64,000 nucleotides of DNA, from the NCBI GenBank assembly GCA_903939755.1, contig CAJAII010000077.1, positions 62,001 through 126,000 on the forward strand, written 5' to 3'. The position numbers were made by a program, and so were the translations under genes. The stretch comes from an uncultured Flavobacteriales bacterium (GTDB taxonomy: Bacteria; Bacteroidota; Bacteroidia; Flavobacteriales_D; Crocinitomicaceae). Shown here one piece after another: positions 38,113-52,616 of the stretch (position 1 is the stretch's first letter; each line of letters opens with the position of its first letter). The notes under the pieces are model-generated. The model was not told the DNA's origin. It ran no database searches and saw nothing but the letters and a program-made list of their open reading frames with translations.

Positions 38113-39228
38113 TTAATTTCTAACTATTCTGATTGTTTGGTTCTCTCCTTTCACAGTGAAGTTCAAGAAATAAATACCAGCTCCTAAGTTCGCTATATTG
38201 ATGCTACTTTCATTGCCATTTAATGACATAACTGTCTCACCCATAATGTTTGTAATGTTGTTCAAGATTGTCGATGAATTAGATACAACAGCCAATGTTC
38301 CATTAGATGGGTTTGGATAAACCGATACCACCTGGTTGGAGATATCCTCGAGACCAGCAACACAAGCAGTACAACTGTTATAACACACTGTACCTAAAAC
38401 AGCATCGCCAACAACTGTGTACGTACGATTTGTAAATCCTCCATTAGTTACGGTACATGACTCGCCTCCAATAAATTGCTCCTCAGCAAACCAACCATCA
38501 AGAGTAAATTTATAGTCAATAACTCCAGGGCCTATTGGTAGTGTTACTTCCCATACACCATCCATATTTGCATCTGACATTGGATTACATGCCCCACACC
38601 AATTATTAAATGTTCCATTTACGAAAACACCTGTATAAGCAGGGCCAGCATATTGATTCATATCAACCTTAAAAGTAACATTTGGTGTTGGAGGGTTAAT
38701 AACTTCCGTTTTTTGATAAACAAACTGCCACCATCCTGGACCAAAATTAATTTGAGCAGTCATGGTATTTCCTCCGTTAGAGAAAGTTACATTATAGGTA
38801 ATTGAGGAAACAGCTCCAGCAGGGCTAGTGAGTTCACCTGCGTTGTTTACTTTAGCCAATCCTATGTGAGCGCCTAAACCATTAACAGTTAAAGTGCCTA
38901 ACACTGCATCAAAAGTATAAGTTGCTGCACCACCCGTGTGAGGAGCAATAGGAGTTCCGCAACCTTCAGGAGCGCCTTGCCAACCTTCCAACCAAGTACT
39001 TCCGTCCATGTAATGCGTCATGGCACCTCCAGGTGCAAATTTAATAGAGTCGTCGAACAAACAAGCTCTCGTGGTAACGTCGCCTAAAGAACTTGAAAAC
39101 CAAGTTAGGTCATTCAATGCTGGACCAACAGCTAAAGATCCTGCTTGACCTGCCAATTTCCAGGTTCCTTCAATTTGTGCGGAAACACCTAAAATTGGAA
39201 ATGCTAAAAGTAGTAGTAGTTTTTTCAT
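38113..39228 (-). CDS. secreted glycan-binding protein: lipocalin-like module, CBM48-like module, T9SS type A domain
   Basis: 371 residues. Signal peptide to ~17. Residues ~18-180 form a beta-rich module (GTWKLAGQAGSLAVGP, ACLFDDSIKFAPGG, WQFVYQKTE) that appears related to the C-terminal module of the PKD lipoprotein 42813-43658. Residues ~185-290 resemble an AMPK/CBM48-type glycan-binding fold (VFVNGTFNNWCG, WEVTLPIGPGVIDYKFTLDGW). The end is a type A T9SS domain (VSVYPNPSNGTLAV, GIYFLNFTVKG, IRIVRN). No catalytic motif is seen. As the last gene of the locus, with its own promoter and operator candidate, it is probably a released glucan-binding accessory. Confidence 0.8.
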   Translation of the reverse strand: MKKLLLLLAFPILGVSAQIEGTWKLAGQAGSLAVGPALNDLTWFSSSLGDVTTRACLFDDSIKFAPGGAMTHYMDGSTWLEGWQGAPEGCGTPIAPHTGGAATYTFDAVLGTLTVNGLGAHIGLAKVNNAGELTSPAGAVSSITYNVTFSNGGNTMTAQINFGPGWWQFVYQKTEVINPPTPNVTFKVDMNQYAGPAYTGVFVNGTFNNWCGACNPMSDANMDGVWEVTLPIGPGVIDYKFTLDGWFAEEQFIGGESCTVTNGGFTNRTYTVVGDAVLGTVCYNSCTACVAGLEDISNQVVSVYPNPSNGTLAVVSNSSTILNNITNIMGETVMSLNGNESSINIANLGAGIYFLNFTVKGENQTIRIVRN

Positions 39229-39283: not shown

Positions 39284-39291
39284 CAAATATA
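39284..39291 (-). promoter_or_regulatory. candidate -7 promoter element for the secreted glycan-binding protein
   Basis: TATATTTG on the minus strand, about 55 bases before the ATG, overlapping the palindrome 39287-39307. Confidence 0.45.
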
Positions 39292-39307
39292 GTAATAAAT
39301 ACAATAA
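39287..39307. promoter_or_regulatory. candidate PUL operator, third copy (weak)
   Basis: ATATAGT-N7-ACAATAA. The right arm is identical to the sites upstream of susC and the sugar transporter; the left arm matches 5 of 7. It overlaps the -7 element, as expected for a repressor site. Confidence 0.4.
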
Positions 39308-39341: not shown

Positions 39342-41675
39342 TTAATTAGACAATATGAATTTGAAATCAAGTAACTGATTACCAACCGTAATGGTGTAAT
39401 CTCCTTGTTCAAACACATCCATTCCATTGTGGTCGGCAAATTTTAGATCTTCGGGGTATAAATAAAAAACAAGTTCTTTACGCTCATTGGCTTGAAGGGT
39501 AACTTTCTCAAAACGTTTTAGACTTTTGCCGGTAGGTACAAAGCTGGCATATTGGTCACTAAGATACAATTGGACCACCTCATCAGTTTTCAGATTACTA
39601 TCATTTTGGATAAAAACAGATACCCTAAGGCTATCATTTTTATGCATCGTAGAATTGTTCAACGTTAGCTTAGAGTAAGTAACTTTTGAATACGATAAGC
39701 CAAATCCAAAATCCCATTCTGGGTTATATGCATCGAAAGGGCCATTCTTTGATCGGTCTACACTTCTCGGATGGTCATAAAATTCGATTACGCCATCATA
39801 TTTTGGATACGTGTAAGGAAGTTTGCCGCTGAAATTTGCCTCGCCATACATCAAATTAATTAAGGCCTCTGCACCATAATCTCCTGGTAGGTAACATTGA
39901 ATAATGGCCGAAGCGCTATCAACAATATCATGAATAATTCTCGGTCTTCCTTCTAAAAGAACAAGTACAACCTTTTTATTTTTTGCATAGGCCAACTTCG
40001 CCAATTCGCGTTGTTGCGGATCTAAATTTAAACTAAGTATATCCCCCGGTTTTTCCGTAGCGGGTAGTTCACCTAAACAAAGAACAAGAACATCTGCTTT
40101 ATCGAGCATTGAATTATATTCTTTTAAGTCGGTATAAACTGTTTTTTCAAAGCCATTTTCATCGAGAGAAAGCGATGCTCCAGCGGCATATAGACAGTTT
40201 TCTTTGCCTAATTTTTGTTCAAACACTTCTCTGATGGTTAAGCAGCCCTTTGTATTGTATTGTTTATCGACTCCTTGCCAGGTATGTGTCCAAGCGCCAT
40301 TAAGAAAAATTAAATTATCCGCTGTAGGGCCAGCAATCATCACTTTTTGTTTTGGGTTTAAAGGAAGTGTGCCTTGATTGTTTTTCAATAAGGTTATTGA
40401 TTCAGTTGCCGCTTGTTTAGCAATTGACTTAAATTTTGTTGATCCGAAATCGGGATACATCGAGAAAGTTGGAATTGGATGCTTAAAAAGATCCAGTTTC
40501 ATTTTTACGCGTAAAACTCTTCGTACAGCATCATCTAAGCGATCCATCGTAATCTTTCCCGCTTTTACTGCTTCCGTCATACTTTTGCAATATTCCTGAT
40601 ACTGAGGGCTGAGTGGTACCATACTCATATCCACACCTGCGTTAAACGATTGAATGTATGCATCGATAAGTGTCGGAGCTGTTCTATGCACTGTATGAAG
40701 CATAATAAAATCTTCCCAGTCGGATACCGCAAAGCCTTGAAATCCCCAATCTTGTTTTAATGTTTTGGTGATTAAATCATAATTCATGTGCCCTGGAATC
40801 CCATTCACTACGCCACTATTAATCATGACAGTCAAAGCGCCGGCCTCTACTGCTTTTTTAAACGATGGCAAATACAATTCTGTCATGTATTTTTGAGGAA
40901 TCCAGGCAGGTGTTCGATCCCTTCCACTAGTAGTGGCAGAATAACCAACAAAATGTTTCATGCACGCCGCAACATGATAAGCGTCTATTCCTCCTTTTCC
41001 TTGGTAACCGGTCACTATTGCCGCACCCATTTGGGAGGCTAAATAAGGGTCCTCACCTAGCGTTTCAAATGTTCTCGACCACAAAGGTTGACGTGCTAAA
41101 TCCAACACAGGTGAAAAATTCCAAGGAATCCCTGAGGCGCGCAATTCATAGGCCGTGATTTCCCCAAAACTAGTAGCCAATTTAGGATTCCATGTTGCTG
41201 CCAACCCTATTTCTTGGGGGAACAATGTACCACCTACCGTATAGTTTACTCCATGAATAGCATCAACACCGTAAATAATCGGAGTTTTCGAAAGGCCTTG
41301 CTGATAATTACGATGAATAGACTTCAGAATACCTTCCCATTCAGTAATACTTAAGGTGTGGCTTCCCACATTTAATACTGAACCGACTTTATACTTATCA
41401 ATGGCCACTTTTAGCTTTTCTTCATCAATTTCCGCTATCGTTCTTGCTGACCCATCGGAATTAGTTTTCAGCAAGACATCTAGTGTTATTTGGCAAGTCT
41501 GACCGACCTTTTCCGCTATACTCATCTTAGCAATTAAACTATTAATTTGCTTTTCATCTTCTTTAGGAAGCGAGAAAGAGGACTGAAGATTAGCCTGCTG
41601 AACCACTTCATTAGCACTTTTACACGATACAAAAACGCAAAGAGAAGTCCCTAAAACGAACGAAATAACTTTCAT
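39342..41675 (-). CDS. GH3 beta-glucosidase, lipoprotein
   Basis: 777 residues from ATG 41675, which gives a lipobox (FVSC); the frame opens 11 codons earlier. GH3 domains: N-terminal barrel with YGVDAIHGVNYTVGGTLFPQ and the catalytic nucleophile Asp319 in FAVSDWEDF, KHFVGYS, then the C-terminal alpha/beta domain (ITLLKNNQGTLPL, GDYGAEALINLMYGEANFSGKLPYT) and a fibronectin III-like end. Family knowledge: BglX-type enzymes release glucose from beta-1,3/1,4 or 1,6 oligomers. Here it is a cell-envelope enzyme that completes breakdown of the glucan cut by the GH16 enzyme upstream (36 bases between). Confidence 0.94.
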   Translation of the reverse strand: MKVISFVLGTSLCVFVSCKSANEVVQQANLQSSFSLPKEDEKQINSLIAKMSIAEKVGQTCQITLDVLLKTNSDGSARTIAEIDEEKLKVAIDKYKVGSVLNVGSHTLSITEWEGILKSIHRNYQQGLSKTPIIYGVDAIHGVNYTVGGTLFPQEIGLAATWNPKLATSFGEITAYELRASGIPWNFSPVLDLARQPLWSRTFETLGEDPYLASQMGAAIVTGYQGKGGIDAYHVAACMKHFVGYSATTSGRDRTPAWIPQKYMTELYLPSFKKAVEAGALTVMINSGVVNGIPGHMNYDLITKTLKQDWGFQGFAVSDWEDFIMLHTVHRTAPTLIDAYIQSFNAGVDMSMVPLSPQYQEYCKSMTEAVKAGKITMDRLDDAVRRVLRVKMKLDLFKHPIPTFSMYPDFGSTKFKSIAKQAATESITLLKNNQGTLPLNPKQKVMIAGPTADNLIFLNGAWTHTWQGVDKQYNTKGCLTIREVFEQKLGKENCLYAAGASLSLDENGFEKTVYTDLKEYNSMLDKADVLVLCLGELPATEKPGDILSLNLDPQQRELAKLAYAKNKKVVLVLLEGRPRIIHDIVDSASAIIQCYLPGDYGAEALINLMYGEANFSGKLPYTYPKYDGVIEFYDHPRSVDRSKNGPFDAYNPEWDFGFGLSYSKVTYSKLTLNNSTMHKNDSLRVSVFIQNDSNLKTDEVVQLYLSDQYASFVPTGKSLKRFEKVTLQANERKELVFYLYPEDLKFADHNGMDVFEQGDYTITVGNQLLDFKFILSN

Positions 41676-41711
41676 ACTAATTAAATTATTCTTTGAATTT
41701 ATTTTCAATTC

Positions 41712-42800
41712 TTATTGAAAAACTCTAACGTAATCCACATACATAGATTGAGGAAAGACCGTGGTAGCATCGGGATTTCCTGGAAAACTTCCCCCAACGG
41801 CCACATTAAAAATTAAAAAGAATTTTTCCTGAAATTCGCTAAGCTCTGCAGGGGTTGTACTAACAGACTTAAATTCCACATTATCCAACAGCCAGTGAAT
41901 ACCCAACTGATCCCAAATGATTGAAAAAACATGAAATTCATCCGCGAATTTTCCACTAGCTAAGGTTGTAGTGCCACCGTATTGGGCATGAGTACCATTA
42001 TCCTGCCAGTGTATCGTTCCAAAAGTGGTTCTATCATTGGCCCCTGCGCCACCCTTCATTTCCATAATATCAATTTCACCGCAAGCTGGCCAACCAGCAG
42101 AGGTTATATTATCACCCAGCATCCACAATGCCGGCCATACCCCTTGACCGTAAGGAAGCGCTGCGCGAATATCAACTCTACCATATTTCCAAGATTTTAA
42201 ACCTTGAGTTTTAATTCTTGATGAAGTATATGCCTGGCCATTGAACTGTTCTTGTTTCGCCTCAATTTTCAATACACCATTGGCTACTGTAGCATTCTGA
42301 TTGGTGTAGTACTGCAATTCATTATTACCCCAACCCCACGAACCGTTACCTATATCATATGTCCAATCATTTGACAAGGCTGCCCCATTAAATTCATCTT
42401 GCCAAACTAAAGAATAATTAGGATACGTTAACGGACTGGAGTAACCCGAAGTTGGCGGCCCTCCTTGGCCATTAGCCACAGTAACTTGCACTAAATCCGT
42501 TTTTGAAATGTAATCAGCATAAGTAGTATGAGCCTTGGTTTTAATAGTATATGACCCTGAGACGGTAAATACGTGAGAAGCAGTGCCTGCTTGAGATTCT
42601 ACCACAGTTGAATCATTCCCATGATAAAATGTTACGGTGTAAAAATTTGCATTTTCAGCCTGAGCCGCTACGTTTACTGTACCGTTAGAAAAAGTGATTG
42701 TGGTTACTAGGTTGGTGGGTAAAACTACAACTGGGGTAACTGGTTTTTTACACGCAGAGAAACCTACAAGCGCAAAAACAAGAAGAAGATTTAAATTCAT
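41712..42800 (-). CDS. GH16 endo-beta-1,3-glucanase (laminarinase-type), lipoprotein
   Basis: 362 residues. Lipobox GFSAC (Cys17). Residues ~25-110 are an Ig/PKD-like domain. The GH16 fold starts LVWQDEFNGAALSNDWTYDIG, and the active site is GEIDIMEMKG (nucleophile Glu242, Asp244, acid/base Glu247). The extra Met in EIDIME is the pattern of laminarinases and lichenases, while agarases and carrageenases usually differ nearby; the WPALWMLGD before it also fits. So it most likely hydrolyses beta-1,3- or mixed-linkage glucan at the cell surface. Neighbours SusCD, PKD lipoprotein and GH3 agree. Confidence 0.93.
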   Translation of the reverse strand: MNLNLLLVFALVGFSACKKPVTPVVVLPTNLVTTITFSNGTVNVAAQAENANFYTVTFYHGNDSTVVESQAGTASHVFTVSGSYTIKTKAHTTYADYISKTDLVQVTVANGQGGPPTSGYSSPLTYPNYSLVWQDEFNGAALSNDWTYDIGNGSWGWGNNELQYYTNQNATVANGVLKIEAKQEQFNGQAYTSSRIKTQGLKSWKYGRVDIRAALPYGQGVWPALWMLGDNITSAGWPACGEIDIMEMKGGAGANDRTTFGTIHWQDNGTHAQYGGTTTLASGKFADEFHVFSIIWDQLGIHWLLDNVEFKSVSTTPAELSEFQEKFFLIFNVAVGGSFPGNPDATTVFPQSMYVDYVRVFQ

Positions 42801-42812
42801 AAGTAAATTGTT

Positions 42813-43658
42813 TTATTCCGGAACCAATCGCAGGTACCATTTTAATCCACCGGCATGGTGACTATATTGTAAAAATAAGGAAGAATCAGTAATACTAACA
42901 ATTCGATAGGTGTGAACGCCAGAGAAAAATCCGATAAAGGCATTATTGGAAATCGTAATTGTTGTGTCTAGCCCTTCCACTAAATTCCATGACTCATTCA
43001 TCTGATTAGTGTATGGAGCGGTGTAATCTCCCAAGTTTTGAAATGAACCAGGAAAAGAGCCCGCTAACGAATTATGAACATATACATCATCATTATTGAT
43101 CATGTCAAATTTAAATCCATTAAGATGAAAAACATATCGATCATTGTATAAACCGCATCCCGGTTTATCATTGGGACCTGCGGCCCACCATTCAGGGACA
43201 TTCCCCAAGGGACTTATTGGATCAGGACCTACACCAAAGTGCCCCGCATTATTAGAATCAATCAGCCAAGTTTTAAATCCGGGACCACTTGCGCCACCCG
43301 TTAACATCGTAAAAATGGGGTTGTTTAATAATCCCAGATCATCTTGCGCAATAACAACATCTTGCGTAGTGCTTCGACTTCCTCCTTTATTAAAAACAGT
43401 TAACTTAATTGTATATGTCCCGGCATACGGATAAGAAGCCGTTGCGGTAGCACCTTGTGCTTTAACACCGTTTCCAAAATCCCATAAACATTGATAATTC
43501 TGACTGTTGGCCGTTAAATCGAGAACATTAGCACTCGTCGAAGAAACGCTATAGGTAAACGATGCCTCAGCTAAGGTTGGTGGATTTCCTAATTGTGGGT
43601 CTTCTTTTTTACATCCAATAAAAAGAAGCGAAATAAGTGCTATAAAAGATAATTTCAT
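42813..43658 (-). CDS. PKD-domain surface glycan-binding lipoprotein
   Basis: 281 residues from ATG 43658, which yields lipobox LFIGC; the longer frame overlaps susD. A PKD domain (~25-105: NYQCLWDFGNGVKAQGATATASYPYAGTY region) is followed by a ~165-residue beta module (GHFGVGPDPISPLG, EWWAAGPND, YNDRYVFHLNG, LKWYLRLVPE). No catalytic residues seen. In position and type it matches the SGBP/SusE-F role: outer-surface glucan capture beside SusD. The C-terminal module seems homologous to that of the secreted protein 38113-39228. Confidence 0.8.
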   Translation of the reverse strand: MKLSFIALISLLFIGCKKEDPQLGNPPTLAEASFTYSVSSTSANVLDLTANSQNYQCLWDFGNGVKAQGATATASYPYAGTYTIKLTVFNKGGSRSTTQDVVIAQDDLGLLNNPIFTMLTGGASGPGFKTWLIDSNNAGHFGVGPDPISPLGNVPEWWAAGPNDKPGCGLYNDRYVFHLNGFKFDMINNDDVYVHNSLAGSFPGSFQNLGDYTAPYTNQMNESWNLVEGLDTTITISNNAFIGFFSGVHTYRIVSITDSSLFLQYSHHAGGLKWYLRLVPE

Positions 43659-43668
43659 ATCATTCGAT

Positions 43669-45129
43669 TTAATATCCATTGTTTTGAGACCAATTGCCTC
43701 CTACTAAGTCAATTTCTACTTGCGGTATTGGAAACAACTCATGCTTTCCGACCACAAAACCAGGAATAAAATCCGCTGCTTTTCCTGTTCTCACTAAATC
43801 AAAGAACCGATGACCTTCACCTGATAATTCATACCTTCTTTCTCTATAAATTACATCTATTGAATTAACAGGGATTGGTTGAATGCCAACACGTTGACGT
43901 ATTTGAGTAACTAAGGACTGAGCTGTGGCGGTATTTCCATTCTGATAATGTGCTTCAGCTGCCATTAAAAGTACATCAGCATAACGAATTACTCGATAAT
44001 TCACAGGGCTTGTCAAATCATTGTCAGGCAGTCCAATTTCACCTTGCCTTTTTATGTACTTATTATTGTAATAACCCGTATGGCCGCCGGCGCCAATAGC
44101 ATAGGAAATGGAGGATGGGTTCGGTTGTGTTGCTATGAAAGCGTCAATATCTAAAATCGTCGCTCCTCTACGAATGTCAAGTGAATAAAAAGCATCATAA
44201 AGCGCTTGAGTAGGCAAGTTGTAGCTATTTCCATCACCGTAAACAGGTCCATTATATTGTCGAATACCTTGAAAACCAACTGCAGCATTTCCCTCTAAAC
44301 AAATATAGCAACCATAAGATCCACCTTCTAATCCAGAGTATTGAACATCAAAAACAGTTTCGCTATTATTTTCATTGTTTGCAGCAAACAATAAATTGTA
44401 ATCAGGAATTAAACTATACATGCCCATAGCGATCACCTCATCAAAAGTTGAGGCTGCTTGCGCAAATTTATTTTGATATAAATAAGCCTTCCCTAAAAAT
44501 GCCAATGCGGCTCCTTTTGTGGCACGTCCTTTTTGACTTGCAACCGGATTTAAAATAGAAGCAGCATAAGCAAAATCCGCTTCTATTTGAGCATAAACTT
44601 CTGCTTTAGGTGTTCTTGGCAATTGCATGGCCTCATCAATCCCAATTCTTTTATCTACAATTAGCGGAATGTCCCCGAAAAACTTTACCAGTTCGAAATA
44701 ATAATACCCACGCAAAAATCTAGCTTCAGCAATAATATGTTCTTTTCCTTGAAAGTCAATCTTATCTTTATTCTCTAGAAGATAATTTGCGCGGGTAATC
44801 CCAGCATAATTCCATCTAAGCACATTTCTCAACTCATTATTCACGCCACCGTGGGTCATGTCATCTATTTGATGCAAGCCTTGAGAATCATTTACACTTT
44901 CTCCACCAGCTATTGAATTATCAGAAGCGATTTCACCAATCCAAAATGACATAAACGAACCCTGAAGCAAATCATATGCCCCAGTTAAAGCCCGTTCATA
45001 ATCTTCTTTCGTTTCAAAAAAGTTTTCTACATCCTGTGTGTAGGGAGGATCAACAGTAAGAAACTTTTCACATCCAGCAGAAACGACAAGAAGGAAAATA
45101 CTAAATAAACTAACTTTAAATAACTTCAT
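43669..45129 (-). CDS. SusD/RagB-family glycan-binding lipoprotein
   Basis: 486 residues. Lipobox VSAGC (Cys19). SusD fold: TPR-like helices and typical motifs ENFFETKEDYERALTGAYDLL, AEARFLRGYYYFELVKFFGDIPLI, YRVIRYADVLLMAAEAHYQNG and the C-terminal RRYELSGEGHRFFDLVRTG. It binds oligosaccharide at the surface and lids the SusC barrel encoded just upstream (3-base gap). Named by family, not by measured ligand. Confidence 0.95.
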   Translation of the reverse strand: MKLFKVSLFSIFLLVVSAGCEKFLTVDPPYTQDVENFFETKEDYERALTGAYDLLQGSFMSFWIGEIASDNSIAGGESVNDSQGLHQIDDMTHGGVNNELRNVLRWNYAGITRANYLLENKDKIDFQGKEHIIAEARFLRGYYYFELVKFFGDIPLIVDKRIGIDEAMQLPRTPKAEVYAQIEADFAYAASILNPVASQKGRATKGAALAFLGKAYLYQNKFAQAASTFDEVIAMGMYSLIPDYNLLFAANNENNSETVFDVQYSGLEGGSYGCYICLEGNAAVGFQGIRQYNGPVYGDGNSYNLPTQALYDAFYSLDIRRGATILDIDAFIATQPNPSSISYAIGAGGHTGYYNNKYIKRQGEIGLPDNDLTSPVNYRVIRYADVLLMAAEAHYQNGNTATAQSLVTQIRQRVGIQPIPVNSIDVIYRERRYELSGEGHRFFDLVRTGKAADFIPGFVVGKHELFPIPQVEIDLVGGNWSQNNGY

Positions 45130-45132
45130 AAC

Positions 45133-48100
45133 TTAAAATTTAAGTTGAACTCCAACCATATATGTTTTCGCTTGAGGATAAAAACCATAATCTACACCTG
45201 CAGCTAAGACACCTGGAGAACCAATATCTGGATCAAAGCCTTGATACTTGGTTAAGGTGAATAAATTGTTTACTGCTGTATAAATTCTGAAAGAATCTAC
45301 TTTCAATCGCTTTAATTTAGTAGTTGGAACTGTGTAGCCCAATTGAATGTTTTTTAAGCGAGCAAATGAACCATCTTCAACAAAATAAGAGGAAAAAACA
45401 TTGTTTCTAGTTGGGCCAGTAGTTACTCTTGGGTGCTCATTTGTTGACCCAGGCCCTGTCCAACGATCTACCACATAACCTAACTGATTGGCATAAGGTT
45501 GTTGACGCTCATAGTTCCTGATGATTTCCTGACCGATAGCTGCATATAAGCTACCAGAAAGATCAAACCCTTTGTATTTTAAATTGAATGCAAATCCCAT
45601 TGTAAAGTCAGGTATTGGCGACCCTAAATATGTTTTGTCTAAATCTCCGTTGAAATTTACAACGCCATCGCCATTTTGATCAACAAAGATTAAGTCCCCT
45701 GGCTGAGCACCATCCTGAACGACTGCTGCATTATCAATTTCATCTTGCGTTTGAAAAACTCCCGCCGTTTCGTAACCGAAAAAATAACCGATTTCATATC
45801 CCGTTTGAAACCGTGTAGCGACATCCCCACCCACGCTAAATTGCGCACCAGGAATATAATCAACTCCTTCCGGAACTGCCGTTACTTTATTTGAAATAGT
45901 AGTGAAATTTAGGTTTAAATCTGCCGTGAATGGTTTTTTTCGCTGCGATTTGTATGCCAATTCCAATTCTACCCCTTTATTTGATACATTTCCAGCATTG
46001 ATTATTGGCGGATATCCTCCGGGGCCATAAGAACCTAAAACCGCTGTTACTTCAGGCTGAAAAAGTAAATCGTAGGTGTTCTTAATGAAATAATTTGTCG
46101 TAAAATCTAACTTATTCCAAAATGTCATGTCAGCACCAATGTTAAATTGTCTGGTAGTTTCCCATTTCAAATCTGGATTGGAAGGCCTACCTATTGCAAC
46201 GCCTGGTGTGATTACATCATTAAATACATACACACCTTCTCCATTTAACAATCCACGGTAAGCAAAGTTCGGAATCTGATCGTTTCCCGAAACACCAAAG
46301 CTAGCCCTGAACTTTAAAAAGTTAATAAACTTAAGGTTATAAAACTTTTCTTCCGAGAGTAACCATCCACCAGAAAAAGTAGGGAAAAAGCCATAACGAC
46401 TATTCGGCCCAAATTTACTAGACCCATCACGTCTTAAAATAGTTGAAAACAAGTATTTGGAGTCATAAGCGTATTCCAATCTCATAAAGGAAGAAATCAA
46501 ACGCTCTTTAAATTCCCACGAACCAACATTATTCAAAAATCCACCTTGTGCCGTATTTGCCGAAATATCAGCATAATCTAAGGAGTTATTCGGTATTCCG
46601 TAGCCAGTTCCATTTAGTGACTCACCTTTCCGTTGAAAGATAGAAATCCCAGCGGTGCCCTTAATAGTATGTACCTCTTGAAAAGTTTTATCATAATTTA
46701 TGAAGCTCTCATAGGATAAATCCAAATAACTTGATCGCTCTTCATACACCGCTGCTCCACGCTCAATAAACACACTGTCTGCTATCTCAACTGTTGGCGA
46801 TTCTAGTGATTCATTAATCGCCGTATTGGCATATTTTCCGTCACCATACCAAACCAAGGGCGAGAATACTTTTGAATTTATTATAGAATAATTATAATTG
46901 AATCGATTAGTGAAAGAAATGTTTTCATTAATAGCATAAACGAACTCTTCTTTCCCGACGAATTTTGCAGCAGTTCCCCAATTATATTGATTTTTAATTT
47001 GTGCAATTGGATTAATAATGTCGCTAACTTCTTCGAGGTAAGAATATTGGCCATTTGGCGTATAAACCGGCTCATTTGGAAAAGCATTGATGGTATTATA
47101 TAAAACCGATCCAATTCCATTTTCGGGCAGGGTATTTCTTGAATCATTAGAGAAAAGAAGTACTGAATTTAATTTTAGCTTTGCCGACATATCGGTGCTA
47201 AAATTAAGTCGAGCATTATACCTAGAAAAATGTGATTTGGAACCACCAACGATTCCATCTTGCGTAAAATAGCCTAAACCGATTGAATATTTAGTATTAA
47301 GAGTGCCGCCACTTAAACTCAAGTTATGACTTTGAACAGGCGAGGTGCTAAAAACCGAGTCTTGCCATGGCGTACCAATTCCAATATTCGTATTTGCAAA
47401 AGGTAATGGCTGACCTCCCATTGCAAACATTTCATTTTTTATTACCGCATATTCTTGAGCGGTCAGTAAGTCAAGTTTTCTAGCTGTTTGTTGAATCCCA
47501 TAATAGGCATTGTATTCAAATTTTGGTTTGGAATTCATGCTTCCATTTTTCGTTTCGACTATTATGACACCATTTGCAGCACGCACACCATAAATTCCTG
47601 CAGTCGCATCTTTCAATACATTCACCGACTTTATATCCGATGGATTTAATGCATTTAACCCTTCAGAGTCATAAACAATCCCGTCCACTAATATCAAGGG
47701 GTCATTGTCACCGAAAGTAGAGATGCCACGTATTCTAATGTTTGCGGAACCACCTGGCGAACCAGAGTTTGTAGAAACATTAACCCCTGCAACCTGACCT
47801 TGCAAGGCTTGATCAACACGCGAAATATTTAGCTTTTCAATGTTCTCTCCACCTACTTTTGTGCTTGCTCCGGTAAGCTCTTTGCTTTTTGCAGAACCAT
47901 ATCCAATAACGACTACTTCTCCTACATCTTTAGTAATGAAATCAGACATCACGACATCGACAATCTTTCGCCCATTTACAGGAACTTCCATTTTCGAATA
48001 GCCCGAAAACGAAAAAATTAAAATTGCATTAGTGGTGTCAATTAGCAAAATGCTATAATTTCCTTTAAGATCAGTTACCACACTATTTTTTTGACCCTTC

Positions 48101-48234
48101 TCAAGAATAGTGACAAAAGGGATTTGCTCCTTTTGCTCGTTTAAAACAACGCCGTAAACCTTATTGTCTTGAGAAAAAGCATGACTCCCCAAAATAAAAA
48201 CTAGTAAAATTGGAAAAAGTAAAATTCTAGCCAT
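45133..48234 (-). CDS. SusC/RagA-family TonB-linked outer-membrane transporter
   Basis: 1033 residues. Signal peptide to ~21, CarboxypepD_reg-like domain (VYGVVLNEQKEQIPFVTI to ~100), the SusC-type box after it (VGEVVVIGYGSAKSKELTGA), plug (ANIRIRGISTFGDNDPLILVDGIVY) and 22-strand barrel ending TYMVGVQLKF. It imports glucan oligomers into the periplasm with TonB energy. Followed by susD. A TAnnTTTG element and a 21-bp palindrome precede it, so it probably starts the main transcript of the locus. Confidence 0.95.
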   Translation of the reverse strand: MARILLFPILLVFILGSHAFSQDNKVYGVVLNEQKEQIPFVTILEKGQKNSVVTDLKGNYSILLIDTTNAILIFSFSGYSKMEVPVNGRKIVDVVMSDFITKDVGEVVVIGYGSAKSKELTGASTKVGGENIEKLNISRVDQALQGQVAGVNVSTNSGSPGGSANIRIRGISTFGDNDPLILVDGIVYDSEGLNALNPSDIKSVNVLKDATAGIYGVRAANGVIIVETKNGSMNSKPKFEYNAYYGIQQTARKLDLLTAQEYAVIKNEMFAMGGQPLPFANTNIGIGTPWQDSVFSTSPVQSHNLSLSGGTLNTKYSIGLGYFTQDGIVGGSKSHFSRYNARLNFSTDMSAKLKLNSVLLFSNDSRNTLPENGIGSVLYNTINAFPNEPVYTPNGQYSYLEEVSDIINPIAQIKNQYNWGTAAKFVGKEEFVYAINENISFTNRFNYNYSIINSKVFSPLVWYGDGKYANTAINESLESPTVEIADSVFIERGAAVYEERSSYLDLSYESFINYDKTFQEVHTIKGTAGISIFQRKGESLNGTGYGIPNNSLDYADISANTAQGGFLNNVGSWEFKERLISSFMRLEYAYDSKYLFSTILRRDGSSKFGPNSRYGFFPTFSGGWLLSEEKFYNLKFINFLKFRASFGVSGNDQIPNFAYRGLLNGEGVYVFNDVITPGVAIGRPSNPDLKWETTRQFNIGADMTFWNKLDFTTNYFIKNTYDLLFQPEVTAVLGSYGPGGYPPIINAGNVSNKGVELELAYKSQRKKPFTADLNLNFTTISNKVTAVPEGVDYIPGAQFSVGGDVATRFQTGYEIGYFFGYETAGVFQTQDEIDNAAVVQDGAQPGDLIFVDQNGDGVVNFNGDLDKTYLGSPIPDFTMGFAFNLKYKGFDLSGSLYAAIGQEIIRNYERQQPYANQLGYVVDRWTGPGSTNEHPRVTTGPTRNNVFSSYFVEDGSFARLKNIQLGYTVPTTKLKRLKVDSFRIYTAVNNLFTLTKYQGFDPDIGSPGVLAAGVDYGFYPQAKTYMVGVQLKF

Positions 48235-48255
48235 TTAATATATGTTAATTGTAAG

Positions 48256-48263
48256 CAAATATA
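48256..48263 (-). promoter_or_regulatory. candidate -7 promoter element for susC
   Basis: TATATTTG on the minus strand, 21 bases before the susC ATG. Confidence 0.5.
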
Positions 48264-48277
48264 AAACTAATTTTTAA

Positions 48278-48298
48278 TTATTGTATAAACAACAATAA
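48278..48298. promoter_or_regulatory. candidate PUL operator upstream of susC
   Basis: TTATTGT-N7-ACAATAA, a perfect 21-bp palindrome with 7-bp arms, placed just upstream of the -7 element, over the -33 region. The same motif precedes the sugar transporter gene (50536-50556). Confidence 0.6.
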
Positions 48299-48332
48299 CT
48301 TGCCGATTTATTGAATTTTGTGTTAATTAAAA

Positions 48333-48360
48333 TCGAATTAAGCAAGCCAAATTAATTCGA
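48333..48360. repeat. 9-bp inverted repeat between regulator gene and susC
   Basis: TCGAATTAA (48333-48341) pairs with TTAATTCGA (48352-48360) across 10 bases, 17 bases after the regulator's stop. It may end that transcript (T-rich after it on the minus strand, but weak) or be a second protein site. Confidence 0.5.
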
Positions 48361-48377
48361 CAACACTTTTTTTAGAA

Positions 48378-49073
48378 CTACATTTTGAATTGATAGTCCT
48401 TTAATCCCTGTTTATTTATATACTCGGTATGTGAGAACGAAAAAAGCTTTGCTGGTCTGTGTTTAACCATTTGTTGTTTCTCATCATGCGCTAGCAATGG
48501 AATATGTTTTATTTTTTTTCTGAAATTCGCTTTGTCTAATGACTGATTATAGGCGTATTCATAAAGCTGCTGGAATTCACTTAAGGTAAACCGATCAGGT
48601 AACATATCAAAACAGATGGGCTCCACGTGTAGTTTTTGTTTAAGTAGTTCAATGGTTGTGGCCATGATCAAGTTGTGATCAAATGCTAAAACAGGAATGT
48701 CATGAATTGGAACCCATGAAATTTCATCTGCCCATGAAGATGCCTTAGCATTAAAATCCTCTATTCGAACCAAGGCAAAGTAAGAAACGGTGACAACTCG
48801 CCCTTGAGGATGCCGCTTAGGATGCCCAAATGATTGTGCCTGATGCAAACCAACGTCTGTTAAACCGGTGAGGTCTTTTAAAATCCTATTTGCCGCTTCA
48901 TCAAGATCCTCATCGGGATATACCAAATCCCCAGGTATAGCCCAAAAATTATTATAAGGTTCCATTGCCCGTTTTATTAATAAGGCTTTTATCTGTCCTT
49001 GAGAATAACCAAATAACATACAATCAACTGAAAAAGCTGAGGTGAAAAAATCGCTAAAATTTATTCGATACAT
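48378..49073 (-). CDS. Nudix-fold transcriptional regulator (NrtR/AraR-like) with degenerate Nudix box
   Basis: 231 residues. N-terminal Nudix domain: CMLFGYSQGQIKALLIKRA, then NFWAIPGDLVYPDEDLDEAANRILKDLTGL as the box region (~43-71). The catalytic REUxEE core reads RILKDL, so the key Glu residues are lost and hydrolysis is unlikely. The C-terminal part (~150-231: RFTLSEFQQLYEYAYNQSLDKANFRKKI) is the winged-helix DNA-binding region of NrtR-type regulators. Such proteins sense a metabolite with the Nudix domain; relatives in Bacteroides control sugar use. Position between the sugar transporter (23-base gap) and susC suggests local control of the locus by a sugar or its phosphate. Confidence 0.85.
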   Translation of the reverse strand: MYRINFSDFFTSAFSVDCMLFGYSQGQIKALLIKRAMEPYNNFWAIPGDLVYPDEDLDEAANRILKDLTGLTDVGLHQAQSFGHPKRHPQGRVVTVSYFALVRIEDFNAKASSWADEISWVPIHDIPVLAFDHNLIMATTIELLKQKLHVEPICFDMLPDRFTLSEFQQLYEYAYNQSLDKANFRKKIKHIPLLAHDEKQQMVKHRPAKLFSFSHTEYINKQGLKDYQFKM

Positions 49074-49096
49074 AAACTCCCTTATTAATTTATTGC

Positions 49097-50518
49097 TTAA
49101 TGTGAACCTTCCTTGGTAGAGAAGTCAGTAATTCCTTGATTTATTAATGTTTTTCTTACACTCCAGGCAAAGAATAATAAATACATAAAACAAATCACCC
49201 CTACCCAATAGGAATGTTGAATGCCCAACAAATCATTACTAGCAAGTGCTCCTTGTGCAGTAGAAATAAATCCACCTCCCATTATCATCATAATTAATAA
49301 GCTCGATGCTGTATTTGTTTTATCGCCTAAACCAGCGATTCCAAGTGTAAAGATACAAGGCCAAAGAGTGCTACAAAACAGCCCTACAGAAATAAAGGCA
49401 AAGACACTTATTATACCAGAAGAAAAAATACCAACTATTAAAGCTAAAATACCCAAGGTGGAATAAATCATAATTTGATTCGCTGGATTTCCTTTACTGA
49501 ATTTGTCCGCGATAATTAACAAAACAACAAGACCAAGATAAGGATAGAATTGCGCCATGGAATTCCCGGCAATCCAGTTTACGAAAAGAAAAATACCAAA
49601 GGCCGCAAAAGGTAAAATAAAACCAAGTATTGATTTAATTTGATTTGAAAAATTAAAGGCTCCCGCCGCAGAAGTCCATCGTCCAATCATTAAACTTGCC
49701 CAAAACAAAGACACAAAAGGAGCTACAGCATTTTCCCCTGTTCCTAATTTCTGTTTCATGAATTCTGGCAGATTGCTAGCTGTAGCAACCTCAACCCCAA
49801 CATAAACAAAAATAGCAATCATCCCCAATATAACTTGGGGATATTTTAAGGTGGCCATTATATTACCTCCTTTAACCTCTGAATCTTCTGTCATTCTATC
49901 TGGAACAGATGAGAATTTAAAAAAAATAGCGGCAATGACAAATGCAAGACCTAGATAAAGATATGGCGTTTGAACAGCCTGTAAGTTTAAGGTGGTTTCC
50001 CCTGAAGACAAACCTCCAAAAATTGCGAAAGAAACAATTACAGGACCTATAGTCGTTCCGACATTATTAATACCCCCTGCCAAACTCAATCGCATATTCC
50101 CTTTTGCAGGATCTCCCATTTTTATTGCTAAAGGATTTGCAGCAATTTGTTGTAAAGAAAACCCTAATCCTACTGTAAAAAGCCCTGAAATCAATAAGGG
50201 AAAAGAGGCATTATTGGATGCAGGAATGAAGAGTAAAGTTCCTAAAGCAGATATAATCAATCCCAAAGCCAAGCCATTTCTGTAGCCAATAACATTTAAA
50301 ATGTCTCTTTTCAATAAAGAGGATATGCCAAAATACAATAAAGACCCAACAGTATATGCAATATAAAAAGCTAAGGAAATCAATTGAGATTCAAATTGAC
50401 TAAGGCTTAGTGCCTTTTTGAATACTGGGATGAGTATGTCATTACTAGCGGCAACGAAGCCCCAAAAGAAAAATATGGTAATTAGCGTACCAAAAGCGCC
50501 GAAATTTGTTTTTTTCAC
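49097..50518 (-). CDS. sugar MFS transporter, GluP/FucP-like
   Basis: 473 residues, about 12 membrane helices. Start is GTG at 50518 (MKKTNFGAFG); no in-frame ATG lies near. Features of the glucose/galactose/fucose:proton symporters: FFFWGFVAASNDILIPVFKK in helix 1, AFYIAYTVGSLLYFGISSLLKRD, GLGFSLQQIAANPLAIKMGD. It probably brings glucose released by the GH3 enzyme across the inner membrane. It starts the transcript with the regulator gene behind it; a palindrome overlaps its -7-like element TATTTTCG. Confidence 0.93.
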   Translation of the reverse strand: MKKTNFGAFGTLITIFFFWGFVAASNDILIPVFKKALSLSQFESQLISLAFYIAYTVGSLLYFGISSLLKRDILNVIGYRNGLALGLIISALGTLLFIPASNNASFPLLISGLFTVGLGFSLQQIAANPLAIKMGDPAKGNMRLSLAGGINNVGTTIGPVIVSFAIFGGLSSGETTLNLQAVQTPYLYLGLAFVIAAIFFKFSSVPDRMTEDSEVKGGNIMATLKYPQVILGMIAIFVYVGVEVATASNLPEFMKQKLGTGENAVAPFVSLFWASLMIGRWTSAAGAFNFSNQIKSILGFILPFAAFGIFLFVNWIAGNSMAQFYPYLGLVVLLIIADKFSKGNPANQIMIYSTLGILALIVGIFSSGIISVFAFISVGLFCSTLWPCIFTLGIAGLGDKTNTASSLLIMMIMGGGFISTAQGALASNDLLGIQHSYWVGVICFMYLLFFAWSVRKTLINQGITDFSTKEGSH

Positions 50519-50535
50519 TGATGCTAAAATTTAAA

Positions 50536-50556
50536 TAATTGTCGAAAATACAATAA
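50536..50556. promoter_or_regulatory. candidate PUL operator upstream of the sugar transporter
   Basis: TAATTGT-N7-ACAATAA: 21 bp with one arm mismatch. It covers the -7-like TATTTTCG (50543-50550, minus strand), about 20 bases from the GTG start. Same form as the site at 48278-48298. Confidence 0.55.
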
Positions 50557-50657
50557 TTAATACTGCTCCGCTCTTTTTAATACTAAATTTTGAAAAAAAA
50601 CGGTTTTTTAGAAACGAACTATAAGCATTCAATAACTTGTTTTGGCAAAGGTTATAT

Positions 50658-52616
50658 TTAACCCGCTTGTATAAATGATGCTGTAGAAGAATGCGAAATA
50701 CTAACTAGTTTCTCAATGGTTTTAATAATGGCCGCTACATCAAATCCACATTCATCCCATAATTCTTCTTGTGTGCCATGATGAATATATTCATCTGGAA
50801 TACCAAGACGTACCACTTCTGATTGATACTTTTGATCAACCATAAATTCAATAATTGCTGAACCAAAACCGCCCATAATACAACCATCTTCTATGGTGAT
50901 TATTTTTTTAAACTTGCTGAAAATTTCATGAAGCAACATTTCATCCAAGGGCTTTACAAAGCGCATGTCGTAATGAGCAATAGAAATTCCAGATTCGCTC
51001 ATTTTAGCAATCGCTTCTTGCGCAAAATTGCCAGGATGACCAATAGAAAGCAACGCAATGTCTTCGCCGTTAGTTACCTTTCTTCCTCTTCCTGTTTTAA
51101 TTTCTTTGAAAGGAGTTCTCCACGCTGTCATCACGCCATTACCTCTTGGATAGCGAATAGAATAGGGTCCCCTTTCTTCCAGTTGAGCAGAGTACATTAA
51201 GTTTCTTAATTCTTCCTCATTCATGGGGGCTGACACCACCAAATTAGGGATACAACGCATGTAAGCCAAATCATATGCCCCATGATGCGTAGCGCCATCG
51301 GCTCCTACAAGCCCTCCTCTATCTAAACAGAATACAACATTGAGATTTTGTAAGGCTACATCATGAATTACTTGATCATACGCCCTTTGCATAAAAGACG
51401 AATAAATATTGCAGAAAGGAACTAGGCCCTGAGTAGCCATTCCAGCACTAAATGTAACCGCATGTTGTTCCGCAATACCAACATCAAAACTTCTTTCTGG
51501 CATAGCTTTCATCATAATATTTAATGAGGAGCCAGAAGGCATGGCGGGCGTTACCCCTACAATTTTTTCGTTTTTTTCTGCTAATTCAACAATTGTATGC
51601 CCAAATACATCTTGATATTTAGGAGCTTGGGGTGACTTCGGTATTATTTTTACTATCTCACCGGTTTCTTTGTTAAATATCCCCGGGGCATGCCATTTTG
51701 TAGGATTGCCTTCTTCAGAATACTTATATCCTGCTCCTTTTCTAGTGATACAATGTAAAATTTTAGGTCCTGGAATATCTTTTAAATCTTCTAAAACTTT
51801 AGCCAAACCAATTACATCATGCCCATCAACCGGCCCAAAATACCTAAAGTTTAATGCTTCGAATAAATTACTTTGTTTTAATAAACTTCCTTTTAAAGCA
51901 CTTGATACTTTGGATGCGATAGATTGGGCATCAGGTCCAAATGTGGATATTTTACCTAACAACTTCCAAACCTCATCTTTAACTTTATTATAAGTATGTG
52001 AAGTCGTTATATCCGTTAAATATTCCTTTAAGGCGCCAACATTTGGATCAATCGACATGCAATTATCATTCAAAATCACCAATAAATTAGTGTCTTTTTC
52101 AAAGCCGGCATTATTCAATCCTTCAAATGCTAATCCTGCTGTCATTGCTCCGTCGCCAATAACAGCAATGTGCTGCGTGTTAAGATTTCCTTTTAAACGA
52201 TTAGCTGCCGCCATCCCTAATGCAGCAGATATTGAAGTAGAGGAATGTCCAACCCCAAAAGTATCAAACTCACTTTCTGATCTTTTTGGAAAACCTGAAA
52301 TTCCACCCTTTAATCTGTTGGTATGAAAATTTTCTCGACGTCCCGTTAATATTTTATGGCCATATGCTTGGTGGCCGACATCCCAAACCAATTGGTCTTG
52401 GGGCGTATTGAAAACATAATGTAGAGCTACCGTCAACTCAACTACACCAAGGCTTGCCCCAAAATGGCTGTTTCCAATCTCCGAAATCACATCAACAATA
52501 TATTGACGTAATTCATCAGATACCTGAATTAAATCATCGGTCGAAAATTTCGATCTTAAATCGCCAGGATTTACTATTTGACTTAAAAATGGGCCGGATG
52601 TATAGTTTTTAACCAT
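50658..52616 (-). CDS. dxs: 1-deoxy-D-xylulose-5-phosphate synthase
   Basis: First step of the MEP pathway: pyruvate plus glyceraldehyde-3-phosphate to DXP, using thiamine diphosphate. 652 residues. Motifs: WDVGHQAYGHKILTGRR, the ThDP-binding GDGAMTAGLAFEGLNNAG...NDN (~154-185), GPVDGHDV, the catalytic Glu region VGIAEQHAVTFSAGMA, DRGGLVGADGATHHGAYD and ITIEDGCIMGGFGSA. Partner enzyme dxr is at 33272-34435. A -7 element lies 11 bases before the ATG. Confidence 0.97.
   Translation of the reverse strand: MVKNYTSGPFLSQIVNPGDLRSKFSTDDLIQVSDELRQYIVDVISEIGNSHFGASLGVVELTVALHYVFNTPQDQLVWDVGHQAYGHKILTGRRENFHTNRLKGGISGFPKRSESEFDTFGVGHSSTSISAALGMAAANRLKGNLNTQHIAVIGDGAMTAGLAFEGLNNAGFEKDTNLLVILNDNCMSIDPNVGALKEYLTDITTSHTYNKVKDEVWKLLGKISTFGPDAQSIASKVSSALKGSLLKQSNLFEALNFRYFGPVDGHDVIGLAKVLEDLKDIPGPKILHCITRKGAGYKYSEEGNPTKWHAPGIFNKETGEIVKIIPKSPQAPKYQDVFGHTIVELAEKNEKIVGVTPAMPSGSSLNIMMKAMPERSFDVGIAEQHAVTFSAGMATQGLVPFCNIYSSFMQRAYDQVIHDVALQNLNVVFCLDRGGLVGADGATHHGAYDLAYMRCIPNLVVSAPMNEEELRNLMYSAQLEERGPYSIRYPRGNGVMTAWRTPFKEIKTGRGRKVTNGEDIALLSIGHPGNFAQEAIAKMSESGISIAHYDMRFVKPLDEMLLHEIFSKFKKIITIEDGCIMGGFGSAIIEFMVDQKYQSEVVRLGIPDEYIHHGTQEELWDECGFDVAAIIKTIEKLVSISHSSTASFIQAG

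Follow-up and report, generated by a model that had tools for sequence, protein, structure and literature searches.

Laminarin-type β-glucans are major carbon stores in water, and in a literature search covering few subscription journals no paper was seen to assign a regulator of the Nudix type to their use. Here we analysed a 64,000-nucleotide stretch of DNA (hereafter the window) from an uncultured Flavobacteriales bacterium of the Crocinitomicaceae, which holds a cluster of eight genes whose enzyme families point to a β-glucan substrate, perhaps a laminarin-like one. A preliminary description of the window had noticed a 21-bp palindrome at three places in this cluster, and had proposed that a Nudix-fold regulator encoded between two of them acts through it on a sugar transporter, a SusCD operon and a secreted protein. 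Are these palindromes the operators of that regulator, and could a single regulator govern all three units?

The gene cluster and its palindromes

All eight genes of the cluster lie on the minus strand:

49097..50518, minus strand: MFS sugar transporter (Pfam MFS_1; NagP and gluP models below their cut-offs)
48378..49073, minus strand: AraR-like regulator, 231 aa, with a Nudix-like domain and a winged helix
45133..48234, minus strand: SusC-like TonB-dependent receptor (Pfam)
43669..45129, minus strand: SusD-like protein (Pfam)
42813..43679, minus strand: PKD-domain protein (Pfam)
41712..42800, minus strand: GH16 glycosidase (Pfam Glyco_hydro_16)
39342..41708, minus strand: GH3 glycosidase (Pfam Glyco_hydro_3)
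38113..39228, minus strand: secreted CBM48-like protein with a T9SS sorting tail (Pfam CBM_48 and Por_Secre_tail)

The three palindromes were found in the sequence at the places and with the arms first reported for them, and are treated below as candidate operators:

48278..48298: candidate operator 1, TTATTGT-ATAAACA-ACAATAA, perfect arms, in front of susC (strict match)
50536..50556: candidate operator 2, TAATTGT-CGAAAAT-ACAATAA, one arm mismatch, 17 bp before the MFS start (strict match)
39287..39307: candidate operator 3, ATATAGT-AATAAAT-ACAATAA, two arm mismatches, before the secreted CBM48-like gene

The -7 box of promoters in this group has the consensus TAnnTTTG, and two such boxes accompany the palindromes:

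48256..48263, minus strand: -7 box TATATTTG of the predicted susC promoter, beginning 14 bp beyond operator 1 (TAnnTTTG match)
39284..39291, minus strand: -7 box TATATTTG, overlapping the right arm of operator 3 (from sequence)

All three palindromes had been placed on or next to a -7 element. This holds for the sites at 48278 and 39287, but not for the transporter site at 50536, downstream of which no TANNTTT[GA] box was recognised. When sites were collected with a looser operator pattern, such a box lay downstream of 78 of 143 distinct sites, compared with about 5% of random, mostly coding, positions. Its commonest offsets from the operator start were 16 (28 sites, this offset being partly built into the second operator form described below), 34 (14) and 25 (9). 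A scan for sigma-70-type promoters was of no help, nor was a terminator scan; the latter gave four terminator-like matches in 47900-50800, none on an operator site.

Against the pattern TWATTGT-N7-ACAATWA, the 48278 and 50536 sites have no mismatch and the 39287 site has two. The strict pattern occurs at two places in the whole 2.9-Mb source genome, which are these same 48278 and 50536 sites, and two random matches would fall within 2,258 bp of each other with a probability of about 0.0016. Taken by itself the strict count says little, because the reversed control also gives 1. With up to two mismatches, 11 matches were found in the window, one of them a shifted register of the 48278 site, against a mean of 4.95 (sd 2.12, largest 10) in window shuffles; genome-wide there were 274 places, and 274 for the reversed control. 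Because the relaxed count equals that of the control, mismatch counting cannot separate the 39287 site from chance, and we replaced it for this site by two other properties, its own sequence form and its conserved position, which do set it apart. In a logo of 65 non-redundant strict sites, both strands pooled, the arms are given by the selection itself; preferences were seen outside them as well as inside, for A at -1 (0.82) and for A at 8 (0.76).

The palindrome accompanies the regulator in relatives

Homologues of the regulator were found in 121 of 200 genomes of the family. Those with at least 55% identity were called type A (76 genomes; in G076 the gene is in two contig-end pieces), and 77 loci, the 76 of type A and that of G021 (a 46% relative), were compared together with three type-B loci. 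Strict sites numbered 137 in the 76 type-A genomes (reversed control 7) and 51 in the 124 others (control 53). Within the genus the counts were 77 in 35 genomes with type A and 4 in 11 without it (controls 4 and 4); related genomes are not independent, so that rank-test values overstate the case.

Conservation at orthologous loci had been named as a check in the preliminary description. Of 76 loci, 61 had a site of either form in the 330 bp that follow the regulator, where Markov shuffles would give 0.2 (one locus was dropped as too short); no site was found in this interval in the other 15 (L049, L065, L085, L087, L088, L093, L105, L107, L113, L116, L118 and L120-L123). An unbiased scan for inverted repeats ranked ATTGT-N7-ACAAT first, in 46 of 76 loci as compared with at most 5 in 20 mononucleotide shuffles, and TTGT pairs after type-A regulators had a spacer of 7 in 46 of 76 loci, the next commonest spacer being 0, in 16. 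In other families of the order, with regulators 46-62% identical, a TTGT-type pair stood within about 330 bp in 17 of 20 loci (L184's is imperfect).

The usual layout in the genus is a site, the MFS gene, the regulator, one or more sites, susC through GH3, another site and the CBM48 gene; in other genera, GH3 precedes the regulator. A different MFS gene (42-51% like the window's) occupies the same place in L050, L051, L053 and L060 with the operator in front of it retained, and sites also persist where GH3 replaces MFS. Upstream of the unit that contains the regulator, a site was found in 27 of 66 cases (16 of 31 with MFS and 11 of 35 with GH3), so that autoregulation is not general. In several loci of the GH3 layout, e.g. 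L084, L086 and L095, sites are present nearby but lay beyond the upstream stretch scanned.

Together, these comparisons strongly support the palindrome as a putative operator of the Nudix-fold regulator: sites follow the regulator from genus to genus even where its gene neighbours change, and drop to background without an orthologue, the genus included. The proposal that one regulator governs transporter, SusCD operon and secreted protein is supported as well, the same promoters carrying sites in relatives, with the transporter site present in only 16 of 31 scanned MFS units.

Those relatives that bear a name are labelled as Crocinitomicaceae, Flavobacteriales or Flavobacteriia bins, with one distant Ancylomarina, and two named proteins come from Fluviicola. 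Two bins labelled Chryseobacterium gleum (L035, L037) hold regulators 93-94% like the window's, and these labels look wrong. In one locus, L080 (G134), the regulator is present twice, the copies being 66% and 60% like that of the window and surrounded by GH3, CBM48 and GH16 relatives.

A probable second operator form in front of the secreted-protein gene

The 39287 site had been described as a weaker copy of the palindrome. Read on the minus strand it is CTTATTGT-ATTTATT-ACTATATTTG, and corresponds to a second form, TTATTGT-N7-ACTATAT; in the window, the full -7 box TATATTTG and the right arm of this form overlap. A longer version, TTATWGT-N7-ACTATATTT, occurs at one place in the source genome, namely this site. 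Among 65 hand-picked genomes it was found at 26 places in 24 of 44 with type A and in none of 21 without, and its reversed control at 3 places in all 65. As the form was defined after the relatives had been seen, these counts are not an independent discovery test; they are checked by how often the form occurs in the whole genome, by its reversed control and by the 21 genomes that lack type A. The match to the -7 box is not perfect everywhere, because some relatives continue TAG and not TTG.

TTATTGT-N7-ACTATAT was also found behind the GH3 end in 24 of 26 loci scanned. In the two misses, L107 and L113, GH3 ends beside the regulator, so the wrong stretch was scanned; in L107 the CBM48 gene is preceded by a site with one mismatch. 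With its single place in the genome and its recurrence behind GH3, the 39287 site is a conserved second form instead of a decayed copy.

Sites outside the cluster

We also examined 40 off-locus sites of type-A genomes, among the matches listed, using a simple reading-frame caller. Thirteen lay inside frames and 27 between them, and 23 of these 27 had a gene start within about 130 bp downstream, a count made with no control. The adjacent genes encode CBM48-like secreted proteins (L135, L136), other T9SS-tailed proteins, lectin-like secreted proteins (L141, L144, L154), an MFS transporter with a GH2-like protein (L156-L158), an E1 dehydrogenase (L143) and a sodium symporter (L140). In other genera, strict sites stand just upstream of genes for G6PD (L145, L161, L163) and GAPDH (L137, L142), hinting at control of central sugar metabolism. 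It is from these kinds of genes that glucose was guessed as the effector. In L139, L140 and L160 the site is just inside the 5' end of the called frame. In four genomes (L128-L131, near 3817-4043) a strict palindrome lies in the same 456-aa frame, which is probably coding conservation and not an operator.

The regulator is related to AraR

The regulator (P0001) consists of a NUDIX domain (residues 25-138) followed by an NrtR winged helix (155-213), both above Pfam cut-offs. Its Nudix catalytic signature, compared by eye in the translation, is impaired, with R kept, E changed to I and EE to DL. A palindromic operator near the regulated genes, as expected of the NrtR family, is predicted here by the comparison of loci. 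The protein scored 140.7 bits with the ADP-ribose NrtR model NCBIfam NF050029, below the cut-off of 400, and its closest solved relative is BtAraR (Bacteroides thetaiotaomicron BT0354; PDB 5bs6, 5dd4, 5ddg, 5deq). The earlier assignment to NrtR-type regulators thus holds for the family, but the protein stands nearer to sugar-binding AraR than to the ADP-ribose-binding NAD regulators. Relatives P0002-P0121, where named by their source, are mostly called '8-oxo-dGTP diphosphatase', which is probably a misnaming, the Nudix signature of the window protein being broken; under this name such regulators are easily overlooked.

Residues Arg34, Arg86 and His131 of BtAraR, which bind sugar hydroxyls, correspond to Arg35, Arg87 and His133, and these are invariant in 75 relatives. 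Elsewhere in the pocket, Phe36, Gly48 and Phe49 are replaced by Met37, Asp49 and Leu50, with Asp49 present in 74 of 75. These changes suggest a sugar other than that of BtAraR, without naming which.

Recognition-helix residues and the operator half-site

The start of the predicted recognition helix was located by alignment to Lys179-Arg180-Asn181-Lys184 of BtAraR:

48513..48533, minus strand: start of the recognition helix, KANFRKK, codons 181-187 (helix 181-188 in the model)

The accessible portion of the BtAraR study (PMC4666351) describes an operator in the crystal of GTGT-N7-ACAC, with 25 bp covered by the protein, Lys179 contacting the G of GTGT and Arg180 intercalating beside that G. It lists Lys179, Arg180, Asn181, Lys184, Lys204 and Arg205 as DNA contacts, said to be absolutely conserved in AraR orthologues. 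The window protein retains four of the six and has Ala182 for Arg180 and His205 for Lys204. Its candidate operators share the spacing and read TTGT-N7-ACAA, with no GTGT-N7-ACAC among them.

Among 75 regulators of the type-A set, the helix reads Lys-Ala-Asn in 74 and Thr-Arg-Asn in one (L123, a 46% relative, for which no site was found). The family also contains type-B paralogues, about 37-42% identical, in 24 loci (L125, L126, L127, L145 and L190-L209), likewise with a Nudix-like domain, a winged helix and palindromic half-sites 7 bp apart. Of these, 22 have a Lys-Arg-Asn helix, and GTGT-N7-ACAC stood upstream in 21 of the 22 (not L192), TTGT-N7-ACAA in none; downstream of the L145 gene there is in addition a TTGT site, ahead of G6PD. 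The two Arg-Arg-Asn proteins had no upstream pair, and one of them (L206) has two GTGT pairs downstream. The spacer of GTGT pairs before type B was 7 in 21 of 24 loci and 9 in 2. As for their surroundings, L126 has α-amylase, GH65, MFS and SusCD-like genes, and L127 has other neighbours.

In 20 more distant loci, Lys-Ala/Gly-Asn was found in 14, with TTGT-type pairs in 12 of these (not L171 and L180; L173 has GTGT as well as TTGT), and the three Thr-Arg-Asn loci (L186-L188) all have TTGT. Two distant loci have Lys-Arg-Asn: the TTGT pair of L184 is imperfect, and L189 has no pair. Nor was a pair found for Ile-Arg-Asn in L185. In shuffles of 120 loci with two stretches each, TTGT-N7-ACAA arose about 4.5 times and GTGT-N7-ACAC about 0.7 times.

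The family comparison suggests a testable rule that adds to the earlier reading: in the sugar-sensing NrtR branch, the half-site would begin with G (GTGT) where both Lys179 and Arg180 are present and with T (TTGT) where one of the two is replaced, Arg180 by Ala or Gly in some clades and Lys179 by Thr in another (BtAraR numbering). We consider the prospects of this code to be evenly balanced. L184 speaks against it, and the number of independent helix changes is small because the states fall in few clades of a midpoint-rooted tree. A correlation between helix and site in NrtR has been studied before, according to the part of PMC5045206 that cites it (reference 62, 2009). If the rule is true, it could serve to predict from sequence which operators many unstudied glucan regulators use; the window's clade would then represent a β-glucan regulator that is widespread and has a second form of operator, overlapping the -7 box.

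A proposed mechanism and its alternatives

We favour, with good confidence, a reading in which the palindromes serve as operators for the AraR-like regulator whose gene lies between two of them, this regulator being an autoregulated apo-repressor that a glucan-derived sugar would release. That the 48378-49073 protein binds these sites is very likely. A dimer would read TTATTGT-N7-ACAATAA with one winged helix per half-site and, without inducer, would cover the promoters of three units, presumed to be co-transcribed as written: transporter-regulator, susC-susD-PKD-GH16-GH3, and the secreted CBM48-like protein. With the transporter-regulator unit under an operator, the regulator would control its own gene too. 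A glucan-derived sugar would then fill the Nudix-fold pocket, upon which the dimer would let go and all three units would be expressed. Repression by the apo form is probable, and glucose as the effector is a tentative suggestion, as far as gene content and pocket changes go. This gives one regulator, three candidate operators and a predicted eight-gene regulon.

Some activators work from a position like that of operator 1, 14 bp upstream of its -7 box, and the regulator might bind but activate, or act both ways by position. This is unlikely, as operator 3 overlaps its -7 box and BtAraR behaves as a DNA-binder released by sugar. We think it quite unlikely that some other regulator, such as a global sugar regulator of the CRP-like kind, binds the sites, which would then neighbour the present regulator gene because both belong to sugar loci. 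In the available part of PMC3878776, a CRP-like palindrome, wwwTATGTTnTAnAACATAwww, does precede several Bacteroides sugar operons that have NrtR-family regulators of their own; it differs from the present sites in sequence and spacing, however, and the loss of sites without the orthologue (within the genus too), the BtAraR-like half-site spacing and the half-site letters that vary with the family's helix residues all argue against such a binder. Finally, AT-rich dyads arising by chance, or RNA hairpins involving no regulator, would fit the equal counts of palindrome and reversed control at two mismatches. They are hardly credible given conservation at homologous places, which extends to loci of relatives from other families of the order, the preference for spacer 7, the terminator-like matches in 47900-50800 that all miss the sites, and the strict-site counts with and without the orthologue.

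Paired operators after the regulator

Two sites lie 127-129 or 148-150 bp apart in 16 loci, and helical-phase looping between them was considered; it was dropped because each spacing belongs to its own set of relatives, and the two sets have different sequences between the sites. Between two operators after the regulator, L054-L059, L061-L064 and L066-L073 share a conserved stretch of 70-90 nt (e.g. L056:10050-10134, L068:10182-10253). It includes a -7-like box of its own and two hairpins, the second of them terminator-like, joined by a conserved linker, and is a candidate for a small RNA or leader that the same operator would control. A related leader stands before susC in L090, L092, L098, L099, L101 and L124. 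Fold z-scores of the stretch were -3.1, -3.5, -5.2, -2.6 and -1.4. A joint alignment gave no consensus structure, and separate alignments showed little covariation, with pairs changed on both sides in 0 of 16, 1 of 29 and 3 of 28. With the stricter filters of Infernal, models R1 and R2 had matches in 8 and 11 of the 51 genomes of the genus. A search of Rfam with six loci at E up to 1 gave two weak matches to a Brucella sRNA family (E 0.086 and 0.091), far below its gathering score. Neither model had a match in the source genome, and the small RNA was set aside as a part of the regulator finding.

Comparison with known sugar and NAD regulators

The NAD-metabolism NrtR of Shewanella (PDB 3gz5/3gz6) differs from the system described here in its ADP-ribose effector and its NAD genes. 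XylR of B. thetaiotaomicron (BT0791), as far as its available description goes, is likewise an NrtR-family sugar regulator beside its pathway genes and responds to xylose. The nearest likeness is to BtAraR, which pairs its half-sites in the same way across the same 7-bp spacer and, in the accessible portion of its report (PMC4666351), is released from DNA by its sugar, L-arabinose. The window's cluster differs in containing GH16 and GH3, with no arabinose genes among its eight named genes, and in reading TTGT where BtAraR reads GTGT, with Ala182 in place of the intercalating Arg180. It offers a test case in a family with a solved protein-DNA complex, in which natural loss of an intercalating arginine accompanies one changed operator base.
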